DNA from: Chloroflexales bacterium ZM16-3
Lineage (GTDB): Bacteria > Chloroflexota > Chloroflexia > Chloroflexales > Chloroflexaceae
Length of the DNA: 46,098 nucleotides
NCBI GenBank assembly: GCA_004138175.2
Contig: RYFE02000039.1
Location: forward strand, 1 to 46,098
Reading direction: 5' to 3'
The translations under genes were made by a program, and so were the position numbers. The notes below the pieces were generated by a model. The model did not search any database. It saw only the letters and a list, made by a program, of their open reading frames with translations, and was not told where the DNA came from. Each line of letters opens with the position of its first letter. The first letter of the stretch is position 1. Of the stretch, positions 8,303 to 21,021 are shown in pieces.

Positions 8303-10159
8303 TCACGGGTAGTTCACCACCGTAACCGGGATATCTGGGTTGGCGATGGTCGATGCGCCGCCGGTGTTATTGACCACATTCCGGATGCCGCCCTTCCCGT
8401 TTGCAGGATCGAGGAAGAGGGTCAGCATGTTGTGCAGGCTCCCCGCCGGGAGGGTATCGGGAACCTCAAACGCGTTGGCCGCGAAGATGTCCAGGCCCTG
8501 GTTGAAGAAGCTGTAGCTGCCCATGCCGTACCCGTTGAACCTCGTCACCTTATCGGCGACCTTCAAGGCTGCCCAGCCTTCGACCGTGGGCGACTGCATC
8601 CACGCCGCCTGGCTGGGCGGGTCGTAGGGCATCTCGTTCTGGAAGAAGACGACCATGCCGCGATTGCCGTTCCAGATCACCTCGTGCTTCTGGTAGTGCT
8701 CGACGAATAGGCCGTAGGCGCTGACCTTGTCGCCGTTGACGATCACGCCGGTGTCGGCGGTGTTGATCGTCCAGCCTACGCCGTTGCCGTGGTCGGCCCG
8801 CCAGGCCCAGATGTCGTCGAGGATGACATCGTCGCTGTTGACGACCAGGCTGGTGGTGGCCTTGCCGGCTGCGGCACCGCCGATGCGAAAGAAGATGTCG
8901 CTGAGCGTGGTCGGGTTGCTGCGGTCGCTCTTGTGGGCGTTCTTCGGGCCGACCTGGAGCAGCACCGGCGAGTTCACCGGCCCGGCGTCGATCATGAACC
9001 CGGCCAGCTTGATGCCCTCGACATCGGCGACCGACATGGCTACGACCCCGTTACTCGGCACGAGCGTGGGCAGGCCCAGGCCGAGAACAACGCTGTCGGC
9101 GCGCTTGACCTGGATCGTCTTGTCGAGCTGGTAGATGCCGGGGGTGAAGAGCAGATTCTTGCCACGGGCCAGCGCATTGTTGATCTTCTGGACGCTGTCG
9201 GTCGGCGTGGCGATGAAGAACTCATCGATCGGGAGCGACTCGCCGGCGGTCGGAGCGCTGCCCCATGTCGTGCCGACGGAGTTGCGCTGGGCGGCGGGCA
9301 CGAATACCCTGTAGCGCCCACGCGAGTCCACGTACAGGTACGGCTTCTCGCGGGTGAGCGGGCTGGCCGCGAGCGTGGTGTACGGGCCACCGCAAGCGTC
9401 ATCGCCGGGGAAGCACTCGGCGGGCGCGCCTACGACGCCGGAGAAGACCTGATTCCAGACGCCGTTGGTCCAGCCATCGAGGACGCTGTTCCTGACCAGC
9501 CACTGCTGCTGCGAGCCGTTGATGACCGTGCCGCCGGCGAATGCCGAGTCGGCGATGAATCCGCCGCTGGCAAACGACGGGCCGGTGCAGTAGTCCATCA
9601 GGGTGAGGTTGCCGCCGGTGATATTGACCCGCCGCATCGGCGCGGCCTGCGAGACGGCCCAGAAGTTGCCGGCGTAGCAGCCAGCACCCGCCGGATCAGT
9701 CACGTTAATGGTCAGGTTCGACAATGACCGCCAGAAGTTATTCAGCGCGATGCAGTTGCCGTCGGTACACTGGTTGTACACGTTGATAGAGCCGTTGATC
9801 ACGACATCGGTCGGTGAGCGGCCTAGTCCGGCCACCTCGGTGTAGTAGCCAACCTGGAAGTTGAGGGGGGCGTCAGCCGTGCCGTAGGTGCCGGGCTTAA
9901 AGAGCAGCGCGTAGCGGTTCGGCCCCATCTCGTCGCTGATCTGCTGGCTGGAGATCGTATCGACCGCCGCCTGGATCTGGCCTATCGGCATGCTCGGGTC
10001 GAAGATCTTCACGTTCGGGCCGAAGTCGGGCTGGTCTCCGCCAGAATGCTGGGTTGGGGAGGCTAATGTCGAGCTGGGAACAGCAAGGACTGTACTCATC
10101 GTCAGCAGAACGAGCGATAGTACCAGAATCCAGATCTGCATTGATCGTCCCTGTAACAT
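8303..10159 (-). CDS. Secreted right-handed beta-helix protein, GH55-like
   Basis: A 618-residue exported protein. The N-terminus is a signal peptide (hydrophobic stretch IWILVLSLVLLTMSTVLA, about residues 8-26). The rest has two related pectate-lyase-like halves, one opening KIFDPSMPIGQIQAAVD and the other TDSVQKINNALARGKNLLF, each followed by a 'FxPGxY' strand. This duplication is the layout of GH55 exo-beta-1,3-glucanases, and from memory close relatives occur in actinobacteria under misleading names such as adenylyl cyclase. The catalytic residue cannot be assigned by eye. The frame opens at a GTG at 10162; the ATG at 10159 is preferred because GGGGG is seven bases upstream. It is the last gene of the six-gene minus-strand sugar locus, and its product would be the extracellular depolymerase. 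Confidence 0.72.
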   Translation of the reverse strand: MLQGRSMQIWILVLSLVLLTMSTVLAVPSSTLASPTQHSGGDQPDFGPNVKIFDPSMPIGQIQAAVDTISSQQISDEMGPNRYALLFKPGTYGTADAPLNFQVGYYTEVAGLGRSPTDVVINGSINVYNQCTDGNCIALNNFWRSLSNLTINVTDPAGAGCYAGNFWAVSQAAPMRRVNITGGNLTLMDYCTGPSFASGGFIADSAFAGGTVINGSQQQWLVRNSVLDGWTNGVWNQVFSGVVGAPAECFPGDDACGGPYTTLAASPLTREKPYLYVDSRGRYRVFVPAAQRNSVGTTWGSAPTAGESLPIDEFFIATPTDSVQKINNALARGKNLLFTPGIYQLDKTIQVKRADSVVLGLGLPTLVPSNGVVAMSVADVEGIKLAGFMIDAGPVNSPVLLQVGPKNAHKSDRSNPTTLSDIFFRIGGAAAGKATTSLVVNSDDVILDDIWAWRADHGNGVGWTINTADTGVIVNGDKVSAYGLFVEHYQKHEVIWNGNRGMVVFFQNEMPYDPPSQAAWMQSPTVEGWAALKVADKVTRFNGYGMGSYSFFNQGLDIFAANAFEVPDTLPAGSLHNMLTLFLDPANGKGGIRNVVNNTGGASTIANPDIPVTVVNYP

Positions 10160-10297
10160 CACGAATCCCCCTATTCCTTGGTGGCTACCTCTTTGATGCG
10201 TACGCTCTCCTCTTCGCGACGGTCAGCACATAGGTATCAACTGGCGACCTCCTTCCGGCGCTCCAGCCAAACGAACCTGATGGGTAAAGGGTTTCTT

Positions 10298-10322
10298 GCG
10301 GAGAGGGACAAGCCCTCTCCGC
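10298..10322. repeat. Hairpin between phosphorylase-like and beta-helix genes
   Basis: A perfect 10-bp stem (GCGGAGAGGG with CCCTCTCCGC) and 5-nt loop lie in the 192-bp gap between the two last genes of the sugar locus. No U-tract follows on the minus strand, so it looks more like an mRNA processing or stability element than a terminator. Confidence 0.55.
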
Positions 10323-10351
10323 GCCTCTCCCAACCCGTCAACGTGGGGGGA

Positions 10352-13300
10352 CTACAAACAGGCGACGGATGTCCAGACGCTGATCTGCTGGATCTCCCCG
10401 TCGCGGGCAAAGACCCCCCGGCTGGCCGCGATGTCTAGGCTGTCACCGTCCAGGGCGCGCTCCGAACCGTCGGCCAGCGTCAGCAGAATGCGGCGCTCAG
10501 CGGACCGGAGGTAGACCACGGGCACCTGGCAGTAGGTGAAGGCGAGGCTGCCTGCGGGGAGGTCAATCTGCCGCCAGCGTCCGCGCAGGTCGAGGTGGCG
10601 GAACATGTCGGGCGCGGCCAGCCACTCGTGGTCGCCGAGCAGGCGCGGGCGGAAGCTGACGATGCCGTTGCGCACCTCCAGGCCAAGCTCGCCCATGCGG
10701 GCGAGGATCTCCTCTTTGACCTGGCCAGTCATGCCGGGCTGCTGGGCGCCCCGGCCGAGCGGCGTGTGCGAGTAGGGGTCGCTGGGGAAGGCCCCGTACT
10801 CGGCGGGCGACTTGTGGGCGCTCAGGCCGGAGCGGATGTCCTGGTAGGCAGCCGCGAGCGCGGCCAGGGTCTCGCCGTCGGCACCCGAGTCGGCGGCGCG
10901 CAGGAAGACCTCCTGGACGGCGAGCAGCAGCTTGGCGACCATGTGCCAGTAGATGCTGCCGAGGCCCTCGTAGGCGAAGAAGCTGCCCGAGCGGCCGGTG
11001 AACTGGGCGTGGTGGAAGGTCTGCTCGAACAGGTCGAGGATCTGCGCGCCCTCGGCCTCGGCCAGGGCGGCGAAGGCCGGCTCCTGGCTCAGCTCGTCCA
11101 GCGCGGCGCGGGCGTCCTGGGCGTTGCGGAAGTCGCCGCTGAAGTGGTAGAAGCCCTCGATATCGCGGCTGATCAGGCGGCGGTCGCCCGCGCGGGCCAG
11201 CGCATCGACCAGGGCCAGGCCGCGCACCTGCGCGGGGGCGATGCGGTTCTTCTGGCGGAAGCCGGGCAGCTCGCGGTTGGGGTAAAGCATATAGCTCTGC
11301 TGGTCGGCGCGGTAGAGCGGGCCTGCGCGCAGGCCGCGCAGCAGGGCTATGGTCTCGTCGGGGCCGATCATGCCCGATGAGAGGATGGCCACCTGGCCCT
11401 CCAGCATCTCGGCGAGCCGACCAATGACGGCGCGGCCATCGGCCAGGCGCAGGGTGTTGTAGCTGTGGTAGAGGCCGTCGTCGCGGCGGTTGGCCCGCAG
11501 CCCATGCTCGACGTAGGCCAGGGTCAGGTCGAGCATGGCCACCACCCGCCCGCGCCCGAGGACGCGCAGGTCGCCCGAGATGCCGTTTCGGTAGACACCC
11601 CAGCGGTAGGCGCTGCCGGCCGCGCCGAGGGCGTCGAGCACGCCCCGGCGCTCCTCGTCGCTGAACTGGCCGTCGAGCCCGCTGCGCTGCGCCTCCAGCA
11701 CCGCAGCCACGCCCTCGAAGAGGTCGCACAGCTCGCGGGTCATCGCCAGATCCTGCGGCCCCTCGGCGAACAGCTCGCGGCAGAAGACGACGTAGCGCCG
11801 CAGGTAGGCCAGCGTCACCACCGAAAGCCCCTTGCCAACCAGGGCGTTGTTGGCGTCATTCCACTCGGGGCGCTGGGTGTTCATCCAGATTCCGCCCTCG
11901 GGCACGAAGTTGGCCAGCTTGGCCAGCAGCAGCAGCAGCAGCTTCTCGGCCAGGCTGGCGTGGATCACCTGGCCAGACTCATCCCAGAGCAGTTTGCCGT
12001 CGCTGCCGCGCTCGGCCACCCGCGCCTCCACCAGGCGCTCGGCCTCCCAGTCAAAGTCGATCGTATGCTGCGGGTCAGCGACCAGGGCCGGATAGGGCTT
12101 GATCCGGTAGGGCACATTGGCGTAGGCAAAGACGCGCCGGCCGAGCTGGGCGCGCAGGCCGCCCGGCTCGAAGCGCTCGGCCGTCTCTAGCAGCTTGAGC
12201 AGGTAGATGATCTGGTGGTCGCTCCAGTAGCCAATATTGGCCCAGGGGTTATGCGGCTCGGGCAGCTCCCACTCGATACCGGCGCGGGTGATCCGGTAGG
12301 GGTTGTAGCCGTCGGCGCTGGTGGCGCTGAGGAAGGTGGCGATCATCCCCATGACATACTGCGGGTAGCTGAAGGCCAGCGGCTCCCAGTTCTGGAAGAT
12401 GTCGCGCCAGTTGCCCTGGTAGTCGAGCCGCCGCGAGCCGTCGGGGCGGCGCACATTGATCGCGAAGCGGTTCCAGGGCCGGCTGGGGTCGCCGTGGCGG
12501 CGGCTGAAGGTGAGCGGCAGGTACTCGCTACAGAGCCGATCCAGGTCGGGCGCGCCGACCGAGGCGGCCCGCTCGTGCAGCCTGCGGGCATCGACGCGCT
12601 CCGGCAGCCCGGCGAAGAACGCGGCGTGGCGCTCTAGCGTCAGCCCGCTGCGGGCGGCCACAAAGGCGCGCAGGTCGGCGCGCTCCACGGTGTAGCCCTC
12701 GGCGAAGATGCCGCCGCGCATCATGTTGAAGAGCGTGTTGGCGACGTGGTGGGCCGCCATCAGCGGGTCGCCGCCGAGCTGCAAGCCATCGGCGCTGGCC
12801 ACCAGCCCCTCAAGCTCGGCGCGCCCGGCGGCGATATCGGCATCCAGGGCGGCGGCCAGCGCGGCGCGGTCGCCGCGCAGGGCAGCCGACAGCTCGGCCA
12901 TATCGGCGGCGTCGCGGGCCACGTCGGCGACGATCCGCCATGAGCACGACTCGCCGGGGGCCAGATCCAGCTGGGCCTGGAGCAGGTAGGCCCCGCGCTG
13001 GCCACGAACATCCTGCTCGGACTCAACCGCCGCGCCGCGCCGGAACGCCTCCACCTGCGCCGACGAGAGCAGCGTGCGCGTATCTTCCAGGCCGATCTGC
13101 CAGGCCACCGTGGCCCGGAGCGACTCGCTCGCCTCAGCCAGGTCGGTCAGGGTCGAGCTGAGCGCAAAGATCGCCATGCCGCTCGGGTCAAGCTCAGCCC
13201 GCTTATAGGCGTCGAGCAGGTTGCTAAAGCCGCTCTGCATCGCCGTGGTCGCCCCGTGCGGCAACAGGTTCTGCACGCCGTCGAGCATCCGCACGGCGCA

Positions 13301-13786
13301 GGCCGCGCCAGACAGCTCGCTCAGGCGACAGCTGCGCACAAAGCCGAAGCGCGGGCTGGTCTGCCAGGTTGCGCGGAAGGCCAGGCCCAGGTCGTGGTTG
13401 CGCTCCTCAAACACCAGGGTGGTGCTCTCGGCATCCTTGTACAGACTGCGCTCAACCCGGTAGCGCTCGCCAGCCCGCTCGCCGAAGGGCTCCCAGCGAT
13501 AGGTGCTGCCCGCCCGCGTCACATGCAGCACCGTCAGCGGGCCAGTGTGCGGGCCGCTGTCATAGAGCCGGTCGACCGTCTCATAGGGGAAGAGCGCCGT
13601 CTCGGGGCTAACCCGCCCCGCCGTCAGGCCGCCGCCGCTCGTCACGAACATCCAGTGGTCTGCCGCGCTAACCAGCGAGATCAGGAAGGGGGCCATCTTG
13701 TCTACGCCGACAATGCGGTAGAGGCGCGCGCCATCAAGCTCGACGAAGCCCCCGCTGGCACCTCGTGCGTCGGTTGTGATAGTCAT
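10352..13786 (-). CDS. Large glycoside-phosphorylase-like protein (GH94/GH149-like)
   Basis: A 1,144-residue cytoplasmic protein without signal peptide. The first ~330 residues look like a beta-sandwich; the middle is helical like an (alpha/alpha)6 barrel. It carries GYWSDHQIIYLLKLLE (519-534), resembling the WGDDHLW segment of GH94; EWNDANNALVG (641-651), resembling the WND motif whose Asp is the general acid in GH94 phosphorylases (here Asp644); and NGISGDL, like the GISGDLP of GH94. The length fits the larger beta-1,3-glucan phosphorylase families (GH149 type). Such enzymes cleave oligosaccharides with phosphate to give a sugar 1-phosphate. It starts 33 nt after permease 2 and probably shares its transcript. 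The family assignment comes from motifs only; a hydrolase or a new family is possible. Confidence 0.6.
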   Translation of the reverse strand: MTITTDARGASGGFVELDGARLYRIVGVDKMAPFLISLVSAADHWMFVTSGGGLTAGRVSPETALFPYETVDRLYDSGPHTGPLTVLHVTRAGSTYRWEPFGERAGERYRVERSLYKDAESTTLVFEERNHDLGLAFRATWQTSPRFGFVRSCRLSELSGAACAVRMLDGVQNLLPHGATTAMQSGFSNLLDAYKRAELDPSGMAIFALSSTLTDLAEASESLRATVAWQIGLEDTRTLLSSAQVEAFRRGAAVESEQDVRGQRGAYLLQAQLDLAPGESCSWRIVADVARDAADMAELSAALRGDRAALAAALDADIAAGRAELEGLVASADGLQLGGDPLMAAHHVANTLFNMMRGGIFAEGYTVERADLRAFVAARSGLTLERHAAFFAGLPERVDARRLHERAASVGAPDLDRLCSEYLPLTFSRRHGDPSRPWNRFAINVRRPDGSRRLDYQGNWRDIFQNWEPLAFSYPQYVMGMIATFLSATSADGYNPYRITRAGIEWELPEPHNPWANIGYWSDHQIIYLLKLLETAERFEPGGLRAQLGRRVFAYANVPYRIKPYPALVADPQHTIDFDWEAERLVEARVAERGSDGKLLWDESGQVIHASLAEKLLLLLLAKLANFVPEGGIWMNTQRPEWNDANNALVGKGLSVVTLAYLRRYVVFCRELFAEGPQDLAMTRELCDLFEGVAAVLEAQRSGLDGQFSDEERRGVLDALGAAGSAYRWGVYRNGISGDLRVLGRGRVVAMLDLTLAYVEHGLRANRRDDGLYHSYNTLRLADGRAVIGRLAEMLEGQVAILSSGMIGPDETIALLRGLRAGPLYRADQQSYMLYPNRELPGFRQKNRIAPAQVRGLALVDALARAGDRRLISRDIEGFYHFSGDFRNAQDARAALDELSQEPAFAALAEAEGAQILDLFEQTFHHAQFTGRSGSFFAYEGLGSIYWHMVAKLLLAVQEVFLRAADSGADGETLAALAAAYQDIRSGLSAHKSPAEYGAFPSDPYSHTPLGRGAQQPGMTGQVKEEILARMGELGLEVRNGIVSFRPRLLGDHEWLAAPDMFRHLDLRGRWRQIDLPAGSLAFTYCQVPVVYLRSAERRILLTLADGSERALDGDSLDIAASRGVFARDGEIQQISVWTSVACL

Positions 13787-13819
13787 CTTTAACCCTGCTC
13801 GGCGAATGCGTAGGCGGCG

Positions 13820-14692
13820 CTATCCCTTGACGGCGCCCGCCGTCAGGCCCGAGACGATGTAGCGCTGGAGGACGAGGAAGATCACCAGCATCGGCAGCGT
13901 CATGATCAGCACGGCCGCCGCCAGCGTGGGCCAGTTGCTGCCGTAGACGCCCTGAAACACGATCATGCCGCGCGTGATCGGGTAGTAGTTCTTGTTGGTG
14001 AGGTAGATCGTCGGCAGGATCAGCTCGTTCCAGATGCCGATCGCATGCAGCACGGCCACGGTGGCCAGGGCTGGCTGGATCAGCGGGAAGACGATCGAGG
14101 TCACGAAGCGAAAATACCCGCAGCCGTCCATGGCGGCCGCCTCATCAAGGTCCATCGGCAGGGTCTTGATGTAGTTCACCAGGATGACGATCCCGATCGG
14201 GTTGACCAGGAAGAGCATCACGTAGCCGACCGGATTGTTGTAGAGCCCCAGGCCCAGCATCAGCTGAAACTGCGGGATCAGCGCCACCGGCAGGAACAGG
14301 GCGATCACATACAGCGTGAGCAGCGCCCCCGCGCCTTTGATATAGCCCCGGGCGATCGGGAAGGCCACAAACACTGCGGTGATCAGGTAGATAACCGTCG
14401 CGGAGACGGTGTAGATCAGCGTGTTGGTCAGGTAGCGCAGGAAGTTGGCCTTGACCCACGCGTCGGCGAAGTTCTGGAAGTTCAGCTTTGTCGGCAGCGC
14501 GGTCGCGCTCTTCATGAAGTCCGGCAGGGTCTTCAGCGAGGTGTTGACCAGCATCAGCAGCGGCCCAAGGTAGATGATGGCGAACACGACGAGCAGCGCG
14601 TAGGCCCCGATCCGCCCCCACTTGATCCGCCCACGCTTGGACAGCTGCTTCGCCCGCAGGTCGGACGACTCCGTTGTCGATAGTGTGCTCAT
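13820..14692 (-). CDS. Sugar ABC transporter permease 2 (MalG-like)
   Basis: A 290-residue inner-membrane permease of the carbohydrate ABC importer class (CUT1). It has six likely membrane helices, starting around residue 27 (IGAYALLVVFAIIYLGPLLML), and the EAA loop EAAAMDGCGYFRFVTSIVFPLIQPALA that docks on the ATPase. The ATG at 14692 overlaps the TGA of the upstream permease (ATGA), so the two are translationally coupled. A longer open frame to 14911 is out of keeping with the family and is rejected as the start. No ATPase gene is present in the locus; a shared MsmK/UgpC-type ATPase elsewhere would be needed. Confidence 0.93.
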   Translation of the reverse strand: MSTLSTTESSDLRAKQLSKRGRIKWGRIGAYALLVVFAIIYLGPLLMLVNTSLKTLPDFMKSATALPTKLNFQNFADAWVKANFLRYLTNTLIYTVSATVIYLITAVFVAFPIARGYIKGAGALLTLYVIALFLPVALIPQFQLMLGLGLYNNPVGYVMLFLVNPIGIVILVNYIKTLPMDLDEAAAMDGCGYFRFVTSIVFPLIQPALATVAVLHAIGIWNELILPTIYLTNKNYYPITRGMIVFQGVYGSNWPTLAAAVLIMTLPMLVIFLVLQRYIVSGLTAGAVKG

Positions 14693-15618
14693 CCCAGGAT
14701 CTTCTCCTCTCTTCGCTGAAGGAAGTACTGCACGGGCAGGCCAATCACCAGAACCAGGCAGAAGAGGACGATCGAGGCGGCGGCGGCGTAGCCCTGGCGG
14801 AAGGCGCTGGTAACGCTGCCCGAGGTCTGGCCAAAGCCCTGGGCGAAGATTAGGTAGCCGAGCACCTGGGTGCCGTTCCGGTAGCCGAGCAGCACCAGGA
14901 ACAGCTGCCACGCCTGGAGCGAGCCGATGATGTTCAGCAGCAGGTTGGTGTTGACATTCGGCGTCAGCAGCGGCCAGGTGATATTTCTAAAAACCTGCCA
15001 CGGGCTCGCGCCGTCGATCTGCGCCCCCTCGTACAGATCCCCCGGAATGGTCTGCAGCCCGGCGATGAAGATCATCATGGTGACGCCCAGGTTAGCCCAG
15101 ATCTGGACGAAGATCACCCAGGCTATAGCCTCGTTGGGCTGCCCGCCCAGGAACTCAGAGCGCATACCGAACAGCCCCAGCAGGCTCGCCAGCGGGCCGC
15201 CCAGCGGGTAGAGGAAGAGCGACCAGATCAGCCCCTGGATGACCGCGCCCAGGATCACCGGCATAAAGAAGATCGTGCGGAAGATGTTGACGCCCTTCAG
15301 GCGCTGGTTCACCAGCATAGCCAGCACCAGGCCGAGCGTAAACTGGATCGTCGTGACACAGAAGCAGAAGATCAGCGTCCGCACCAGCGCCGCGTAGTTG
15401 TCGAGCGACGCCTGGCCCATAAACAGAAACTCCCGGTAGTTCTCAAACCCGATCCAGTGCAGGGCCGTGCCCTGGATGCCGCTCGCATCGGTGAAGGAGT
15501 ACACGCCGGTTGCGACAGACGGCCCGAGCATGATCACCAGGTAGAAGAGGAACCCGGGCAGCAGCAGCAGGTAGGGCGCGAGCCTGGCCCTGCCACGGCC
15601 AAAATGGTAGTTGTTCAT
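14689..15618 (-). CDS. Sugar ABC transporter permease 1 (MalF-like)
   Basis: A 309-residue CUT1-type permease with about six membrane helices (the first at APYLLLLPGFLFYLVIMLGP) and an EAA loop, EGAQIDGASPWQVFRNITWPLLTPN, near residue 200. It pairs with the downstream permease to form the membrane channel. The ATG at 15618 is preceded by GGAGGG on the minus strand; the open frame extends to 15903 but that part overlaps the binding-protein gene and hairpin. The gene ends in a 4-nt ATGA overlap with permease 2. Confidence 0.93.
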   Translation of the reverse strand: MNNYHFGRGRARLAPYLLLLPGFLFYLVIMLGPSVATGVYSFTDASGIQGTALHWIGFENYREFLFMGQASLDNYAALVRTLIFCFCVTTIQFTLGLVLAMLVNQRLKGVNIFRTIFFMPVILGAVIQGLIWSLFLYPLGGPLASLLGLFGMRSEFLGGQPNEAIAWVIFVQIWANLGVTMMIFIAGLQTIPGDLYEGAQIDGASPWQVFRNITWPLLTPNVNTNLLLNIIGSLQAWQLFLVLLGYRNGTQVLGYLIFAQGFGQTSGSVTSAFRQGYAAAASIVLFCLVLVIGLPVQYFLQRREEKILG

Positions 15619-15662
15619 GCCATACCCTCCTACGATTTGGGACAGGCCCACATCACATGGTT

Positions 15663-15705
15663 GATGATGGTGGCGGTGTGGCAAAGCCACACCGCCACCA
15701 TCATC
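15663..15705 (-). promoter_or_regulatory. Stem-loop between binding-protein and permease genes
   Basis: A perfect 20-bp stem (15663-15682 with 15686-15705) and AAA loop begin five bases after the binding-protein stop and end 44 bases before the permease start. In sugar ABC operons such hairpins stabilise the binding-protein message or cause partial termination, so more binding protein than permease is made. That role is inferred. Confidence 0.65.
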
Positions 15706-15709
15706 AGCC

Positions 15710-17062
15710 CTACTTGTTGGCGTCGAGCCCGGACTGCAGGTCGGCCTGAACCTTATCGGCCAGGGCCTGCGGATCATCGAAGGTGCCGAAGGGCTTGAAG
15801 TAGGATGCGTAGGGGTTGGCGAACTCGCCGGCGCCCTTGGGGGCGACCCAGTACTGCTCGTAGCCCACCCGGAAGTTGGCCAGGTAGGGCGCAACCTCGG
15901 CACCGATCGGGCTGCTCAGCGTGGCACCCGGCTGAGTCGGGATGAAGCCCACCGCGTTGGCGAACGCCTGGTAGTTGGCCGGGTCCGAGAACTCCGTCAG
16001 GTACTTCATGGCCGCGTCTTTGTTCGCGGTCTTTCCCGCGACGACCCAGCCCTGGTCGTACTTCCCGAACAGGTACTTGTTCTCATCGGCGTTATCGCTG
16101 CCGGGGAAGGGGATGTAGCCCCACTTGAAGCTCGGCTGGGCCGCGTCGATGGCCGAGGCGTACCAGGTGCCGCCGGGGAACATGGCGACCGCGCCCGAGG
16201 CGAAGCGTCCGGGGGCCGCATCGCCGGCGATCCCGCTCGCGCCCGTCTCCATCATGTCCTGGGCGTAGGTCTTCATCTTCGTCCACATGTCCAGGGACTT
16301 GGCATCGTTCCATGTGGCGCTGCCGGTCCACAGGCCCTCGACGAGCTGGGCCTGGTCGGGGTACTCAGCACCGATCAGGCCGTAGGCGCCCACGAAGATC
16401 GGCCAGCCATCCTTGCCGCCGGCGGTCATGCAGGGAATGTTCGCCGCCTTGAAGGTCGCGCAGGCCGCGACCAGCTCGCTCCAGGTGGTGGGGACGGCCA
16501 CGTTGTTGGCGGTGAAGAGGTCCTTGTTGTAGTAGATGCCGCTGTAGGATACGCGGCCGAGGTTCACCTGGTAGACCTTGCCGTTGTAGGTGCCGGCATC
16601 CTTGATCGCCGCGTCATCGTAGTTCTTGATGAAGGGCTGGTCGGAGATATCCATCAGCAGCCCGGCGTCGATCAGCGTCTGCCAGTTCGGCGCGGTGACA
16701 TTCTTCATATAGGGCTGGGCCGCGTTGGCGAAGCCGAACATATCGACGACGTCTACATCATTAGCCGTTAGGCGGGTCTGCGTAACCGTGCTCAGGTCGT
16801 TGGCGTTCACAACGGCCATGTCCACGGTGATGTTGGGGTACTTGGCCTGAAACTGCTCGTTGAACGTGTTCATAAAATCCACCATCGGGGGGTTCTGGTG
16901 GATGAGCACCTTCAGCGTTACATTCTCTGCCGCCGCTGGGGCCTGGGTTTCCGCCGCCGGGGCCTGGCCCGCCGGGGCCGCCGGGGTCGAGCTGCCACAC
17001 GCCGCCAGGAGCGTCGCGAGCATGGCGATCACGCCGATGAGGACTGAGCTTCGCTTGAACAT
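15710..17062 (-). CDS. Extracellular sugar-binding lipoprotein of ABC importer
   Basis: A 450-residue solute-binding protein of the type 1 carbohydrate family. The first 22 residues are a lipoprotein signal ending in the lipobox LAAC, with the lipidated Cys22, followed by an Ala/Pro-rich linker and the mature domain (LKVLIHQNPPMVDFMNTF...). YNGKVYQVNLGRVSYSGIYYNKDLF and the FASGAVAMFPGGTWYAS region are typical of the family. The ATG at 17062 has GGAGGAG upstream; the longer frame to 17242 is rejected. It is the first gene of the transport operon, and its ligand is not predictable from sequence; oligosaccharides of a glucan fit the neighbours. Confidence 0.95.
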   Translation of the reverse strand: MFKRSSVLIGVIAMLATLLAACGSSTPAAPAGQAPAAETQAPAAAENVTLKVLIHQNPPMVDFMNTFNEQFQAKYPNITVDMAVVNANDLSTVTQTRLTANDVDVVDMFGFANAAQPYMKNVTAPNWQTLIDAGLLMDISDQPFIKNYDDAAIKDAGTYNGKVYQVNLGRVSYSGIYYNKDLFTANNVAVPTTWSELVAACATFKAANIPCMTAGGKDGWPIFVGAYGLIGAEYPDQAQLVEGLWTGSATWNDAKSLDMWTKMKTYAQDMMETGASGIAGDAAPGRFASGAVAMFPGGTWYASAIDAAQPSFKWGYIPFPGSDNADENKYLFGKYDQGWVVAGKTANKDAAMKYLTEFSDPANYQAFANAVGFIPTQPGATLSSPIGAEVAPYLANFRVGYEQYWVAPKGAGEFANPYASYFKPFGTFDDPQALADKVQADLQSGLDANK

Positions 17063-17442
17063 AGCACTCCTCCAAGATCTTCTAGCCTTAGAAAAAAGTC
17101 TCCGACGATGGAGCGGGTTCGTGGAACGGCCATGCGTGGGCTTTGGGCGGTGCCCCCCCTCCTCTCTCTCACGAAGGCTGATATGGTCGCGGATCGCCCA
17201 CATGTGGGGTGCGCGAAGCGGGCAGCGCGTATGCGCGCCCACCCATCATCTGCCTGCGCACATGTACAGGATGCGGTCAGCTGCGGTTTCCATGCGCCTT
17301 GATGTGCGTGTGGAAGCCAGTGGCCGGATATCAGCTTGCCAGATCTATCGTTGGATCTTCATTCTAGCAGACGTGGGGAGGGATGCGCTTGGAGAAAAGC
17401 ATCATGTGCATGGACATTTCAGAGGAACCTGGCCCGCGCGTG
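17063..17442 (-). promoter_or_regulatory. Control region of the sugar transport operon
   Basis: No gene is seen in this 380-bp stretch between the regulator and the operon it probably controls. A TAGAAT -10 box with TG at the extended position lies at 17361-17369 (minus strand), without a good -35. Possible operator elements are TGCGGT direct repeats 10 bp apart (17272-17277 and 17282-17287), the palindrome CCACATGTGG (17198-17207) and a second CACATGT 60 bp away (17259). AraC-type factors usually bind direct repeats about one or two helical turns apart. The assignment of promoter and sites is tentative, because the sites would be downstream of the proposed -10 box. Confidence 0.35.
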
Positions 17443-20400
17443 CTATGCCTCCGCGCGGCGATACGCCTCGGGCGACATGCCGACCTCACGGCGGAAGATG
17501 CGACTGAAATAGCCGCTATCTGAGAACCCGACCAATGCAGCGATATCGGTGATGCTCGCCTCGCCCTGCTTGAGCAGCAGCTTTGCCTGATTGACCCGGT
17601 AGCGATTCAGGTAGGCGATGGGCGTCATGCCCACTTCTTTGTGGAAGCAGCTCGTCAGATAGTCATCGGCCATGCCCACCAGCCGCGCGAGGTCTTGCCG
17701 CGAGATCGGCTCGGCGTAATGCTCGTGGACATAGGCCATGGCCTGCCGCACCAGGCGCTGCGCCTCATTGCTCAGCTTACGCCTGCGCTCAAGGGCTGCG
17801 TCAAGGTGCGCCATCGTCTCGGCGGCGGTGAACAGGCCCTTGCTCATCACGGTGGCGACACCCCGGCCGAGCCGGGCGATGTCCTGCTGACTCAACACCT
17901 GCCCGGTGAGCACAATCACCGGGACATCGCGGGTAGCCTCTGCCTGGCGCAGCGCCTCGATGACGCCGAAGCCGTCGATCTTGGGCATGATCAGATCCAG
18001 CAGCACCAGATCGACCCGCTGCTGGCCCAGGATCTCCAGAGCCTCACGGCCATTGTTGGCCTTGATCACGCGGGCGTCAGGCCAGTGCGACTGAACAATC
18101 CGCGCGTTCATGTCGAGCGTGCCGGGATCGTCGTCCACGACCAGAACGGCCCTCCCCGCGTCATTCGTGTCGCCGGCGAGCCAGTGCTGGTCGAGCGCGC
18201 TGGTCAGCTCGGCCAGCTCAATCGGCTTGGTCAGGTAGTCTAGCTCCAGCACGGACCCGCGATCATGGGCCAGCGTATAAAACATCACCGGGAGATCGCG
18301 GGTCAGCGGGTTGCCCTTGATCGCCTTCAAGATCTCCCAGCCATGCTCAGGATCGCTCGTCATATCCAGCACTACGGCATTGGGCGACACGGTCGCCATT
18401 TCTCCTAGCCAATCTCCGGCGTCCGCCGTCAGCACAAGATGCACCTCAAAGCCGCGCTGGCTCAAGTGCTCCGAGAGGCGCTGCCCGCTGCTGACGTGAT
18501 CTGTCAGCACCATAACGCGCTCCGCATCACGGGCCTGGCTCGCCGGGTCTCTGGCCAGCGTCACGGGCGGCGTCACGGCGGGGAGCGTAAACGAGAAGGT
18601 TGAGCCCGCGCCCTCCTCGCCGGTTGAGTGCAGGCTGATCGAGCCACCGTGCAGCTCAATCAGCCGCTTGCAGATAGCCAGGCCAAGGCCCATGCCGGTG
18701 TAGCCACGCGTGACGCTGCGGTCAGAGCGACGAAACTCGCTAAAGATCGCAGCCTGATCTGCGGGCGGAATGCCCAGCCCGCTATCGCTCACGCTCACCC
18801 GCGCATACTCGCCGCTGGCCTCCAAGGTCAGGCTCACCATACCCTGCGCGGTAAACTTGATCGCGTTGCTGATCAGATTGAGCGCCACCTGCCGCAGCCG
18901 CGTGCGATCCCCCCAGACCCACGGCCCGCGCTCGGGCAGGGCGGCGCTCCAGGCCAGCCCCTTGTCCTCTGCCAGGCGATAGCCGGTCTCGGCCACCATT
19001 CGCAGGGCCTGGCTCAGATCGACATACTCGTTGGCCAGGCGCAGCTGCCCAGCGTCGCTGCTGGCCAGGTCCAGAACATCATTGATCAGGCCGCCCAGAT
19101 GCTGCGCGTTAGCGTTGATCCGCTCCAGGTCATCGCGGTACACCTCCGACAGCGGGCTCGCGCTCTTGTCGCTCTCTTGGACGAGCATCCGGCTCAGCCC
19201 GACGAGCAGGTTCAACGGCGTGCGCAGCTCGTGGCTAACCGTCGAGAGAAAGCGGCTCTTGAGCTGGGCGGCCTCCTCAGCCAGCCGCCGCCCCTCCATG
19301 GCCTCGCGGTAGAGCTGGGCGGTATGCAGGGCGGCGGCCAGCTGCTGGACAATCGCGCCGTAGATCTCCAGGTGATCGCTGTCGAAGGCCACAAAGCCCA
19401 GCTGGCCGCGCGGGCTCACCAGCGGCAGCAGCGCCAGGCTGAACGGGGCCGCTTCAAGCAGCAACTCGGCGGGCGGGAAGTCGCGGCTGAGGCAGAAGGT
19501 GGCAGGCTGATCGGGCGCGGTGATGCTGCGCAGGTGACAGCGGGCCATGGCGTCAACCATACCGCCAGGCTCAAACAGGGCCACCCAGCCCCTGGTAATG
19601 CCCATCGTCGGCAGGTGGCGCGCCAGGATGGCAAACACCTGCGTCTCATCGAGCGCCATCTGGAGCTGCGCGGTCAGCACGCCCATACGGTTCGTTTTCC
19701 AGTGCTCGGCGACGACATAGCGGCGATGCTGGCGCTGCATGTGCGCGCTCAGCACCACGCGCGCGCGGTCGATCAGCTCGTGGGCGGGCGATTGGGGGCC
19801 ATCTGTCGCCTCCTGGAGCGCCGAGATCGCCGCCTGCCAGATATGCGCGTCCTCGTGCGTGAAGGCGCGATCTTGAAGAATCTCGTCGAGCGACACATAG
19901 AACTCGCTCGGGTCGTGCCGCGCCATGGCCTCCGCCAGCGTGTCGGCCAGCCGCCAGCACGACGCCTCAACCTCAGCCTCGGCCATGCCCTGGGCCTGCG
20001 CGAGCACCGCCGCCTTCATGGCTTGCACCAGCTCGGCGGGCTGATCCAGCCCATAGGGCGCTGGCTGCGGAGGCGCGCTGACATCGGGCAGCGCGGCGAG
20101 GCCATGGCCGCGCCCGCATCCGCAGGACTCTCGGGGGATCAGGCGAGTTGGAATCCTGACAGGCTCGGCCAGCACGGTGTCCCCGGCGATCATCTGGGCG
20201 AGCAGCTCTATGGCCCGGTAGCCCATCCGAAACAGCGGGATGCGCACGCTGCTCAGCTCCGGCGTCTGCACGGCGCTCTCTGGCCGGTCATCAAACCCGA
20301 TCACGGCCACATCCTGGGGGATTCGCCGCCCAGCCTCGATCAGCGCCTGGATCACACCGAGCGCCGACTCATCATTGCTGGCCAACACAGCCGTAAACGG

Positions 20401-21021
20401 CGCGCCGCCGTCGAGGATCTGGCGCATGGCCGCATAGCCCGCCGCGTAGACATGTCGGCCATAGGCCACCAGCCGGGGGTCAGCCGAGATCCCATATGCC
20501 TGCAAGGCCACATGGTATGCGCGCAGACGACCGCCGCTATCCCCATCCATATCGTCTGGGCTGCCGGCGATGAAGGCGACCCGGCGGTGCCCGTGGCCAG
20601 CCAGGTGGCGCATCGCCTCAAGGATGCCGCCAGCATTATCGGCGGCGATTGTAGGCCCGCGCTCCCCAGATCCAACAAACAGCACCGGATGCCCGGCGGC
20701 GATCATCGCCTGGATATCACGCGAGAGGGCCGGCAGGTGCAGGGGGTTAATCGCAATCAAGCCATCGGTATTCCAGGGGCCAACCGGCACAAAGTCGGTC
20801 TCGGGCAAGGGGATAGGCCACGCCGGGCGCAAGGGGTCGCCCGTGGTTGCCGAGACGCCCATGCCGCAGCCGAGGAGCAGATGGCAGCCCAGGTTCTGCG
20901 CAGCCAGGCACATGCCATGGAGCAGCGGGTCGAGATAGCTGAGCGGGGTGGCCGTCCAGTAGTACTGCCACCCCGTCAGGACACCAATTGTCAGGTGCCC
21001 ATCGCGCTTATGCGTAGACAT
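17443..21021 (-). CDS. One-protein sugar sensor: LacI-type sensor, histidine kinase, two receivers, AraC regulator
   Basis: A 1,192-residue protein with, in order: a LacI-type periplasmic-binding-like sensor (about 8-290) ending in the cysteine motif SCGCGRG; a helical and GAF-like region (about 330-575); a HisKA domain with His597 in SHELRTP; a HATPase domain (about 690-815) with NLISNAIKF, DSGLGI and GMGLGLAI; a first receiver (about 835-945) with Asp886 and Lys932 but a weak acidic pocket; a second receiver (about 957-1075) with DDD, Asp1009 and Lys1061; and two AraC helix-turn-helices (about 1090-1190). There is no signal peptide or membrane helix, so it senses a cytoplasmic ligand, and no LacI DNA-binding head. 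It stands upstream of the sugar operon and is very likely its regulator. The ATG at 21021 has only a weak ribosome binding site. Confidence 0.93.
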   Translation of the reverse strand: MSTHKRDGHLTIGVLTGWQYYWTATPLSYLDPLLHGMCLAAQNLGCHLLLGCGMGVSATTGDPLRPAWPIPLPETDFVPVGPWNTDGLIAINPLHLPALSRDIQAMIAAGHPVLFVGSGERGPTIAADNAGGILEAMRHLAGHGHRRVAFIAGSPDDMDGDSGGRLRAYHVALQAYGISADPRLVAYGRHVYAAGYAAMRQILDGGAPFTAVLASNDESALGVIQALIEAGRRIPQDVAVIGFDDRPESAVQTPELSSVRIPLFRMGYRAIELLAQMIAGDTVLAEPVRIPTRLIPRESCGCGRGHGLAALPDVSAPPQPAPYGLDQPAELVQAMKAAVLAQAQGMAEAEVEASCWRLADTLAEAMARHDPSEFYVSLDEILQDRAFTHEDAHIWQAAISALQEATDGPQSPAHELIDRARVVLSAHMQRQHRRYVVAEHWKTNRMGVLTAQLQMALDETQVFAILARHLPTMGITRGWVALFEPGGMVDAMARCHLRSITAPDQPATFCLSRDFPPAELLLEAAPFSLALLPLVSPRGQLGFVAFDSDHLEIYGAIVQQLAAALHTAQLYREAMEGRRLAEEAAQLKSRFLSTVSHELRTPLNLLVGLSRMLVQESDKSASPLSEVYRDDLERINANAQHLGGLINDVLDLASSDAGQLRLANEYVDLSQALRMVAETGYRLAEDKGLAWSAALPERGPWVWGDRTRLRQVALNLISNAIKFTAQGMVSLTLEASGEYARVSVSDSGLGIPPADQAAIFSEFRRSDRSVTRGYTGMGLGLAICKRLIELHGGSISLHSTGEEGAGSTFSFTLPAVTPPVTLARDPASQARDAERVMVLTDHVSSGQRLSEHLSQRGFEVHLVLTADAGDWLGEMATVSPNAVVLDMTSDPEHGWEILKAIKGNPLTRDLPVMFYTLAHDRGSVLELDYLTKPIELAELTSALDQHWLAGDTNDAGRAVLVVDDDPGTLDMNARIVQSHWPDARVIKANNGREALEILGQQRVDLVLLDLIMPKIDGFGVIEALRQAEATRDVPVIVLTGQVLSQQDIARLGRGVATVMSKGLFTAAETMAHLDAALERRRKLSNEAQRLVRQAMAYVHEHYAEPISRQDLARLVGMADDYLTSCFHKEVGMTPIAYLNRYRVNQAKLLLKQGEASITDIAALVGFSDSGYFSRIFRREVGMSPEAYRRAEA

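Follow-up and report, generated by a model that had tools for sequence, protein, structure and literature searches.

Clusters that pair a phosphorylase of glycoside hydrolase (GH) family 149 with an ATP-binding cassette (ABC) importer and a LacI or AraC regulator have been described in Proteobacteria as 'type I', and the sections of the report dealing with them list a COG0747 binding protein, two ATPases and no extracellular laminarinase (PMC5827456). Glycan loci of Bacteroides are accompanied by hybrid two-component systems, which join sensor, kinase, receiver and DNA-binding output in a single polypeptide; as presented in the relevant parts of their description, these proteins span the membrane with a periplasmic sensor, and one of them, BT1754, employs a periplasmic-binding-protein fold (PMC3243724). 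LacI repressors, such as CelR with cellobiose (PDB 5ysz), combine a ligand-binding core with an N-terminal helix-turn-helix (HTH) headpiece. Here we describe a locus in a 46,098-nucleotide stretch of DNA from Chloroflexales bacterium ZM16-3 (assembly GCA_004138175.2, contig RYFE02000039.1, positions 1 to 46,098; hereafter the window), which is one whole contig (C61) of a genome of 6.27 Mb in 127 contigs. The minus strand of the window carries, at 8303-21021, six adjacent genes encoding a regulator, a sugar-binding lipoprotein (SBP), two permeases, a GH149 protein and a GH55 protein.

The locus resembles the type I clusters in having a GH149 gene, an ABC importer and a regulator of LacI or AraC kind; it differs in that its importer is of the SBP_bac_8/MalFG type, no ATPase gene is local, a predicted secreted glucanase is present and the regulator combines a hybrid kinase with a LacI core and an AraC tail, as far as the published description of those clusters allows comparison (PMC5827456). 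Like the Bacteroides proteins, this regulator is a single chain with kinase, receiver and AraC-type output domains (Pfam, motifs), and like BT1754 it uses a periplasmic-binding-protein fold; unlike them, in the parts of the report that describe them, it has no transmembrane anchor or periplasmic sensor, as it lacks a hydrophobic stretch and its sensor is a cytoplasmic LacI-type core (PMC3243724). With LacI repressors it has the ligand-binding core in common, whereas the headpiece is absent and its output is a phosphorelay plus an AraC-type domain. None of the six genes matches a SusC/SusD pair in a Pfam and NCBIfam search of these genes. We consider it quite probable that this is a beta-1,3-glucan utilisation locus run by a one-protein cytoplasmic phosphorelay, with its own operator and a regulator gained by exchange. 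Beyond the original prediction, which was made from the letters of the window, our analysis adds the LacI nature of the sensor, a probable operator, a swap of regulators relative to a sister species and the standing of GH55 as an odd member. Loci, genomes, contigs and families are referred to by our own labels (L, G, C and f) where they must be told apart.

Results

The regulator gene (17443..21021, minus strand, ATG start) encodes 1192 amino acids (aa), which were analyzed by Pfam, alignment and motifs, and AlphaFold/Foldseek. Residues 1-300 form a LacI-type ligand-binding core (Peripla_BP_3, 130 bits in Pfam), in agreement with a sequence search, and residues 1-580 modelled with AlphaFold (mean predicted local distance difference test score of 80) returned LacI-type proteins as its best solved matches in Foldseek, the second being CelR with cellobiose. 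The core starts at about residue 10, and no LacI headpiece was found, neither as a PF00356 match in the protein nor within 1.5 kb of its gene; the three headpieces of the genome all lie in frames of full LacI length. The core is followed by a helical linker and a GAF-like domain (aa ~459-579), which was read from the model fold and has no Pfam match, and then by HisKA (His597) and HATPase (704-815) domains with intact kinase motifs, a degenerate first receiver, a canonical second receiver with Asp1009 and intact motifs, and a C-terminal AraC-type HTH (aa 1111-1189). An active first receiver was considered, but, as judged by eye, the Asp at its phosphate site varies (Chloroflexus has Asn) and it has no acidic pair. 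A membrane-bound regulator was ruled out for want of a membrane-type hydrophobic stretch, with a peak 19-residue Kyte-Doolittle mean of 1.54 compared with 2.67 and 2.85 for the permeases; by this hydrophobicity calculation, the giant sensor is cytoplasmic, as originally predicted. Within its own genome, none of the best matches listed, out of 163, extended beyond the GAF-kinase-receiver part or the LacI core, self excepted. Just after the LacI core lies an SCGC motif (RESCGC, aa 297-302, window 20116-20133) that is invariant in 11/11 sensors in each of two alignments, versions of the sensor with a GGDEF output among them, and that could serve a metal, redox or structural role.

A congener, G238, carries a closely related operon under a different regulator. 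Its SBP is 90% identical to that of the window, its permeases 91% and 89%, and its GH149 84%, the operon adjoins the same 3-deoxy-D-arabino-heptulosonate 7-phosphate (DAHP) synthase and SNF2 genes, and a transporter tree places the two together (100/99). The giant regulator is replaced in G238 by a divergent LacI gene with two TGAAANCGNTTTCA palindromes, while the direct repeat described below was not found in the G238 promoter; further genes, one of them for a receiver-PAS-GGDEF-EAL protein, lie between LacI and DAHP synthase, and at the other end the G238 contig stops after GH149. In turn, the window has no LacI palindrome even when 2 mismatches are allowed. A segment comprising the SBP leader and start (17033..17149, minus strand) is homologous to G238 by local alignment (score of 77, maximum of 30 shuffles 38), and this homology ends at window 17149, the edge of the exchanged regulator-promoter segment. 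We conclude from these comparisons that the exchange took regulator and promoter together, with the chromosomal site unchanged. The LacI arrangement is also common to three members of another genus, with LacI ~72% identical, and because two genera share it, LacI is likelier to be the older state in the family, which would set the direction of the exchange. The giant regulator is absent at E 1e-90 from 4/4 congeners and from 11/18 other family members sampled. Simple retention of the Chloroflexus regulator by vertical descent was rejected as the source of the window copy, as most of these sampled genomes lack the gene and the copy stands apart from Chloroflexus in the tree, though with weak support for its exact place.

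Words common to the gaps between regulator and SBP genes led to a direct repeat, (A/T)TTNTCCA-N13-TTTCTCCA, with a period of 21 bp. Promoter comparison places it in the window as AATGTCCA-N13-TTTCTCCA (17390..17418, minus strand), a candidate regulator-binding site, and a probable -10 box, TAGAAT (17361..17366, minus strand), assigned by conserved spacing, lies 23 bp past it. The repeat was present at ≤4 mismatches in 21/22 promoters (1.3 expected from mononucleotide shuffles) and at ≤2 mismatches in 16/22 (0.015 expected), and the reverse strand of the same promoters gave one match with 4 mismatches and none with fewer. The best -10 match was located 22-23 bp past the repeat in 18/21 sites, the null maximum being 9 in 500 shuffles. 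Among 43 held-out loci, the repeat occurs at ≤3 mismatches within 1.5 kb downstream in six (L121, L128, L130, L133, L137, and L148), where a background of 0.026 per kb predicts at most 1.7; all six belong to the core clade of regulators that holds the window, and TACAAT or TAGAAT follows at 22-23 bp in 6/6, as counted by eye. The exact pattern occurs once in the window genome, with 2 mismatches in each of the next best two sites, and in G216 and G200 it is found only at the corresponding promoter, G216 having one further site at 1 mismatch. In the promoters of LacI-run loci the repeat was not found (best 5-6 mismatches forward and 5-7 reverse), and the Chloroflexus genomes yielded none in G110 and two 2-mismatch matches each in G126 and G230. 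A separate repeat search within the window promoter gave nothing of use, and sigma-70 and terminator scans found 1 and 4 candidates, respectively, both under the shuffle means. Some of these data count against the repeat as an operator. The pattern was derived from the very 22 promoters that were scored, which leaves the -10 spacing and the held-out loci as independent evidence; it was not found in 37/43 held-out loci, nor in L132, which has the operon; and the held-out stretches gave 3 matches on the reverse strand vs 6 on the forward strand, so that the count by itself is weak evidence and the case depends on the spacing. On balance, the direct repeat at 17390-17418 is probably the operator of the regulator.

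The 1,144-aa protein encoded at 10352..13786 (minus strand) is a predicted GH149 beta-1,3-glucan phosphorylase, matching the NCBIfam equivalog NF058639 over aa 11-1137 with 1523.1 bits (cut-off 1150) and a solved GH149 (PDB 6hq6) with 1081 bits. It contains W642-N643-D644 and R461-D462, and His948 was placed by offset in the 6hq6 alignment as the phosphate-recognising His; the roles of the WND catalytic loop, the RD motif and this His are those given in the passages of PMC6771811 on the family. Pfam has no match for the protein, and its candidacy as the sensor was discarded given its NCBIfam assignment. The 619-aa protein encoded at 8303..10162 (minus strand) is a predicted secreted GH55 beta-1,3-glucanase with a hydrophobic N-terminus; its start is GTG or, alternatively, ATG at 10159. 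No NCBIfam model matches it and Pfam finds just the pectate-lyase-like PF12708 (30 bits, cut-off 27), while residues 45-619 align with SacteLam55A (PDB 4pew) with 558 bits. Its Glu510 and Tyr513 correspond to Glu502 and Tyr505 of SacteLam55A, as read by eye from the alignment, and Glu502 is the general acid of that enzyme, with Thr149, Ser198, Gln174, and Glu480 as relay residues, in the account given by the pertinent sections of PMC10637969. By sequence alignment, the two window enzymes appear homologous over their full length to SacteLam55A (GH55) and Pro_7066 (GH149), with most active-site residues in common. Thus, model searches did not scatter the phosphorylase-like and beta-helix proteins of the original prediction into unrelated families: the former was placed in GH149 by a curated model and the latter in GH55 by a full-length structure match, both in its favour.

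To survey the regulator more widely, the sensor alignment was scanned against 84,980 species genomes, which yielded 244 relatives; the best 80 were kept, corresponding to 78 loci, and trees were built with one best match per locus. Chloroflexota names are attached to 76/78 loci, the exceptions being L184, an acidobacterial locus with GGDEF output, and L147. L147 (JAHHHY010000011.1) is labelled Pleurocapsa minor (Cyanobacteriota), yet two trees nest it within Anaerolineae, and mis-binning of the contig is the probable explanation. The locus also occurs in cultured relatives, Levilinea saccharolytica and Ornatilinea apprima. The outputs are kinase-AraC in 63 loci, GGDEF in 6, and cut or broken in 9. 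By these sequence comparisons, the predicted soluble LacI-core hybrid-kinase regulator is a family of the Chloroflexota, and we found no description of a LacI-core hybrid kinase in the open-access literature, most subscription journals lying outside reach. In the GGDEF versions (L113:2844-5114, L168, L180, L182, L184, and L187), assigned by Pfam for L113 and by similarity for the other five, this output replaces the kinase behind the LacI-core and GAF-like sensor; three closely similar copies stand in tandem in L168, and GH55, GH3, GH16, GH94, and GH161 genes lie near that of L113.

Gene neighbourhoods were compared for the 40 of the 63 kinase-AraC loci that had 6 kb or more of downstream sequence, which left out 23. 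An SBP of the same type with both permeases was found in 20 of these, GH149 in 17, GH161 in 4, GH16 in 25, other ABC genes in 11, and nothing searched for in 3. The GH161 query protein, taken from L113, matches a solved GH161 over its full length with 830 bits, and its assignment as GH149 was rejected at 87.8 bits against the cut-off of 1150. The core clade comprises 43 rows on the tree, 28 of which have enough flank; GH149, GH161, GH94 or GH16 lies beside the regulator in 25/28 of these vs 2/12 outside the clade, both with GH16 only (Fisher 1.8e-5), and GH149 or GH161 in 21/28 vs 0/12 (Fisher 9e-6), p-values that overstate the significance, as the loci are related and not independent. In distant Chloroflexota, the order regulator-SBP-permease-permease is followed by GH16 and GH149 or GH161 genes, which strengthens the beta-1,3-glucan assignment made originally. 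A 400-genome sample of the phylum had GH149 matches in 19 genomes, 12 of them above the cut-off, and 9 of these 12 loci have the same-type transporter, next to the giant regulator in 3 (the window, G200, and G216) and next to LacI in 5 (G238, G214, G260, G253, and G345). The GH149 locus of G370 is cut at a contig end, and those of G336, G187, and G264 have no same-type transporter in the stretch fetched. Separately, several Chloroflexus-type genomes (L097-L103, L138, L140, L143, L145, and L146) contain the giant regulator as an orphan: neither a transporter nor a phosphorylase to match it was present in the stretches fetched.

The transporter genes of the window encode the lipoprotein (15710..17062, minus strand; SBP_bac_8, PF13416, by Pfam, start and lipobox), permease 1 (14689..15618, minus strand; nearest to the UgpA/MalF type), and permease 2 (13820..14692, minus strand; nearest to the GlcU/MalG type), both permeases being BPD_transp_1 proteins below the equivalog cut-offs. 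The lipoprotein starts at an ATG at 17062 preceded by GGAGGAG and has the lipobox LLAAC, and the permease genes are joined by an ATGA overlap (GGGATGAGC). None of the six genes encodes the ATPase of a transporter (Pfam). The whole genome has one match to the MalK-type OB domain, on contig C79, in an ATPase gene assigned to the UgpC subfamily at 466 bits against a cut-off of 432, so that a MalFGK-type importer could be assembled from the SBP and permeases of the locus and this MalK/UgpC-type ATPase. On C79 (L116:9237-11551), a LacI gene is followed by this sole MalK-type OB-domain ATPase found in the genome, which is apparently a motor shared by several sugar importers; on contigs C90 and C83, another two LacI genes have permease pairs nearby, which would then also depend on it. 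Concerning the locus as a whole, the six genes, their order and the ATGA overlap are as first proposed, and the proposal that the missing ATPase implies a shared one is supported by the single OB domain on another contig. The description of the locus as complete-looking holds for the six genes but not for the ATPase, which is encoded elsewhere, nor for the join to GH55, which is interrupted by a gap of 189 bases containing a 10-bp hairpin. This hairpin (window 10280-10340, between GH149 and GH55) is perfect, GC-rich and without a T run, its fold z-score of -0.57 is not significant, and it may act in processing or attenuation or have arisen by chance.

A further feature of some members of the family is a predicted stand-alone LacI headpiece gene. 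We scanned 97 stretches with the regulator or sensor, including GGDEF versions and some contigs twice, and detected genes of 63-81 aa for such headpieces between the regulator and the next genes at 12 loci (L121, L127, L129, L132, L133, L135, L137, L139, L141, L147, L154, and L155; for example, L127:13778-13969 and L141:6192-6386), after exclusion of L158 (180 aa) and L169 (339 aa, a full LacI). A thirteenth, in L194, was seen by eye in a three-frame translation. One typed copy matches Pfam LacI with 63 bits, and differences at the three codon positions of 0.316, 0.231, and 0.631 fit purifying selection. In the 40 core-clade loci compared, LacI-like palindromes were present ≤700 bp downstream of the regulator in 7/13 loci with a headpiece vs 1/27 without (Fisher 6e-4, by a rule written after some of the sequences had been seen), and they lie 36-42 bp ahead of the headpiece gene in five of the seven. 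L141, one of the seven, also contains two exact copies of the palindrome pattern seen at the LacI-run loci. No headpiece gene is present in the window. We tentatively suggest, at somewhat less than even odds, that a LacI core became fused to a kinase and AraC domain while its headpiece persisted as a neighbouring gene, giving a system in which two arms control one beta-1,3-glucan operon, a repeat-binding activator and a headpiece bound to palindromes a short way downstream, of which the window would have gained the activator arm only, by in-place exchange.

Discussion

The predicted functions of the six proteins suggest the following scheme. The secreted GH55, judging by its family, would cut beta-1,3-glucan outside the cell, and the lipoprotein and two permeases would import the oligosaccharides with a UgpC/MalK-type ATPase supplied from elsewhere. 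GH149, as a member of a curated equivalog family, would then use phosphate to release glucose 1-phosphate, sparing ATP. An imported oligosaccharide, most likely a laminari-oligosaccharide, would bind the LacI-type core and thereby control the kinase, His597 would hand its phosphate to Asp1009 in the second receiver, and the AraC-type domain would bind the repeat at 17390-17418 and turn on the SBP-permease-permease-GH149 operon, with site and spacing taken from promoter comparison. At this chromosomal site, a LacI repressor with its palindromes would have given way to the present regulator and promoter.

Several observations weigh against parts of this scheme. The ATPase search used one domain model, which ATPases lacking that domain would escape, and the tree position of the window regulator is weakly supported (82). 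With respect to GH55, one relay residue differs from SacteLam55A, Thr149 being Leu140 here while Gln, Ser, and Glu are kept (by eye); the equivalent position also varies in the characterised MnLam55A, where it is Glu-140, according to the portions of PMC10637969 that treat it. GH55 is found in 0/40 regulator loci in the stretches fetched, there is no direct repeat upstream of it, and the 189-base gap with its hairpin separates it from GH149, so that GH55 is perhaps off the operon transcript. Furthermore, no match to it was detected at E 1e-20 in 22/22 other genomes of the family sampled, its nearest relatives (69-71% identical) occur chiefly in families f24 and f25, and other loci carry GH16 in that part. 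These findings would suit a GH55 that is a separate passenger, acquired and transcribed on its own, for example for use against fungal walls, outside the regulon. We regard such independence as rather unlikely, given that the gene is adjacent, lies on the same strand and has the same predicted substrate, and that, in G232, a relative of the sensor with a GGDEF output is also near GH55 as well as GH16, GH3, GH94, and GH161. GH55 is nonetheless a local addition, an unusual member of the locus that may lie outside operon control.

The ligand of the sensor is another part of the scheme to which an alternative applies. Enzymes and transporter could serve beta-1,3-glucan while the sensor responds to glucose 1-phosphate, glucose, cellobiose, a mixed-linkage oligosaccharide or the general sugar state. 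Several sensor relatives outside the core clade adjoin other ABC genes, L106 adjoins a GH42 gene, and 4 of the 25 core-clade loci with a searched enzyme have GH16 only, a family with several substrates. Within the core clade, L121, L133, and L140 lack the searched enzymes, although L133 has GH3, and in Chloroflexus the regulator occurs with no operon of this kind; thus, laminari-oligosaccharides may not be the ligand at every locus. Even so, the association with GH149/GH161 is confined to the core clade in our comparison, and the single exact genome site, located ahead of the operon, fits a dedicated regulator, which makes a different ligand at the window locus improbable. It is less probable still that the regulator is a repressor, or acts mainly through an unliganded kinase, with sugar stopping phosphorylation and the repeat blocking RNA polymerase, for although the site is near the expected -35 position and the sign of control is unreadable from sequence, AraC-type activators usually bind direct repeats ending ~22 bp before the -10 box, and the repeat has this layout, with no consensus promoter found. 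We therefore retain a dedicated, activating phosphorelay as the likeliest form of control for the beta-1,3-glucan operon.

The window and G238 amount to a natural experiment, in which genes 84-91% identical occupy one site under two regulators with their own kinds of operator, and the pair suggests that a repressor circuit can be replaced by an activating phosphorelay with the structural genes untouched. If the split headpiece is real, it would mark a route from a one-component repressor to a two-arm system. The finding also ties a glycan locus to a kind of regulator for which we found no open-access description and offers a defined candidate operator and ligand class. More broadly, it points to likely beta-1,3-glucan users among the mostly uncultured Anaerolineae.

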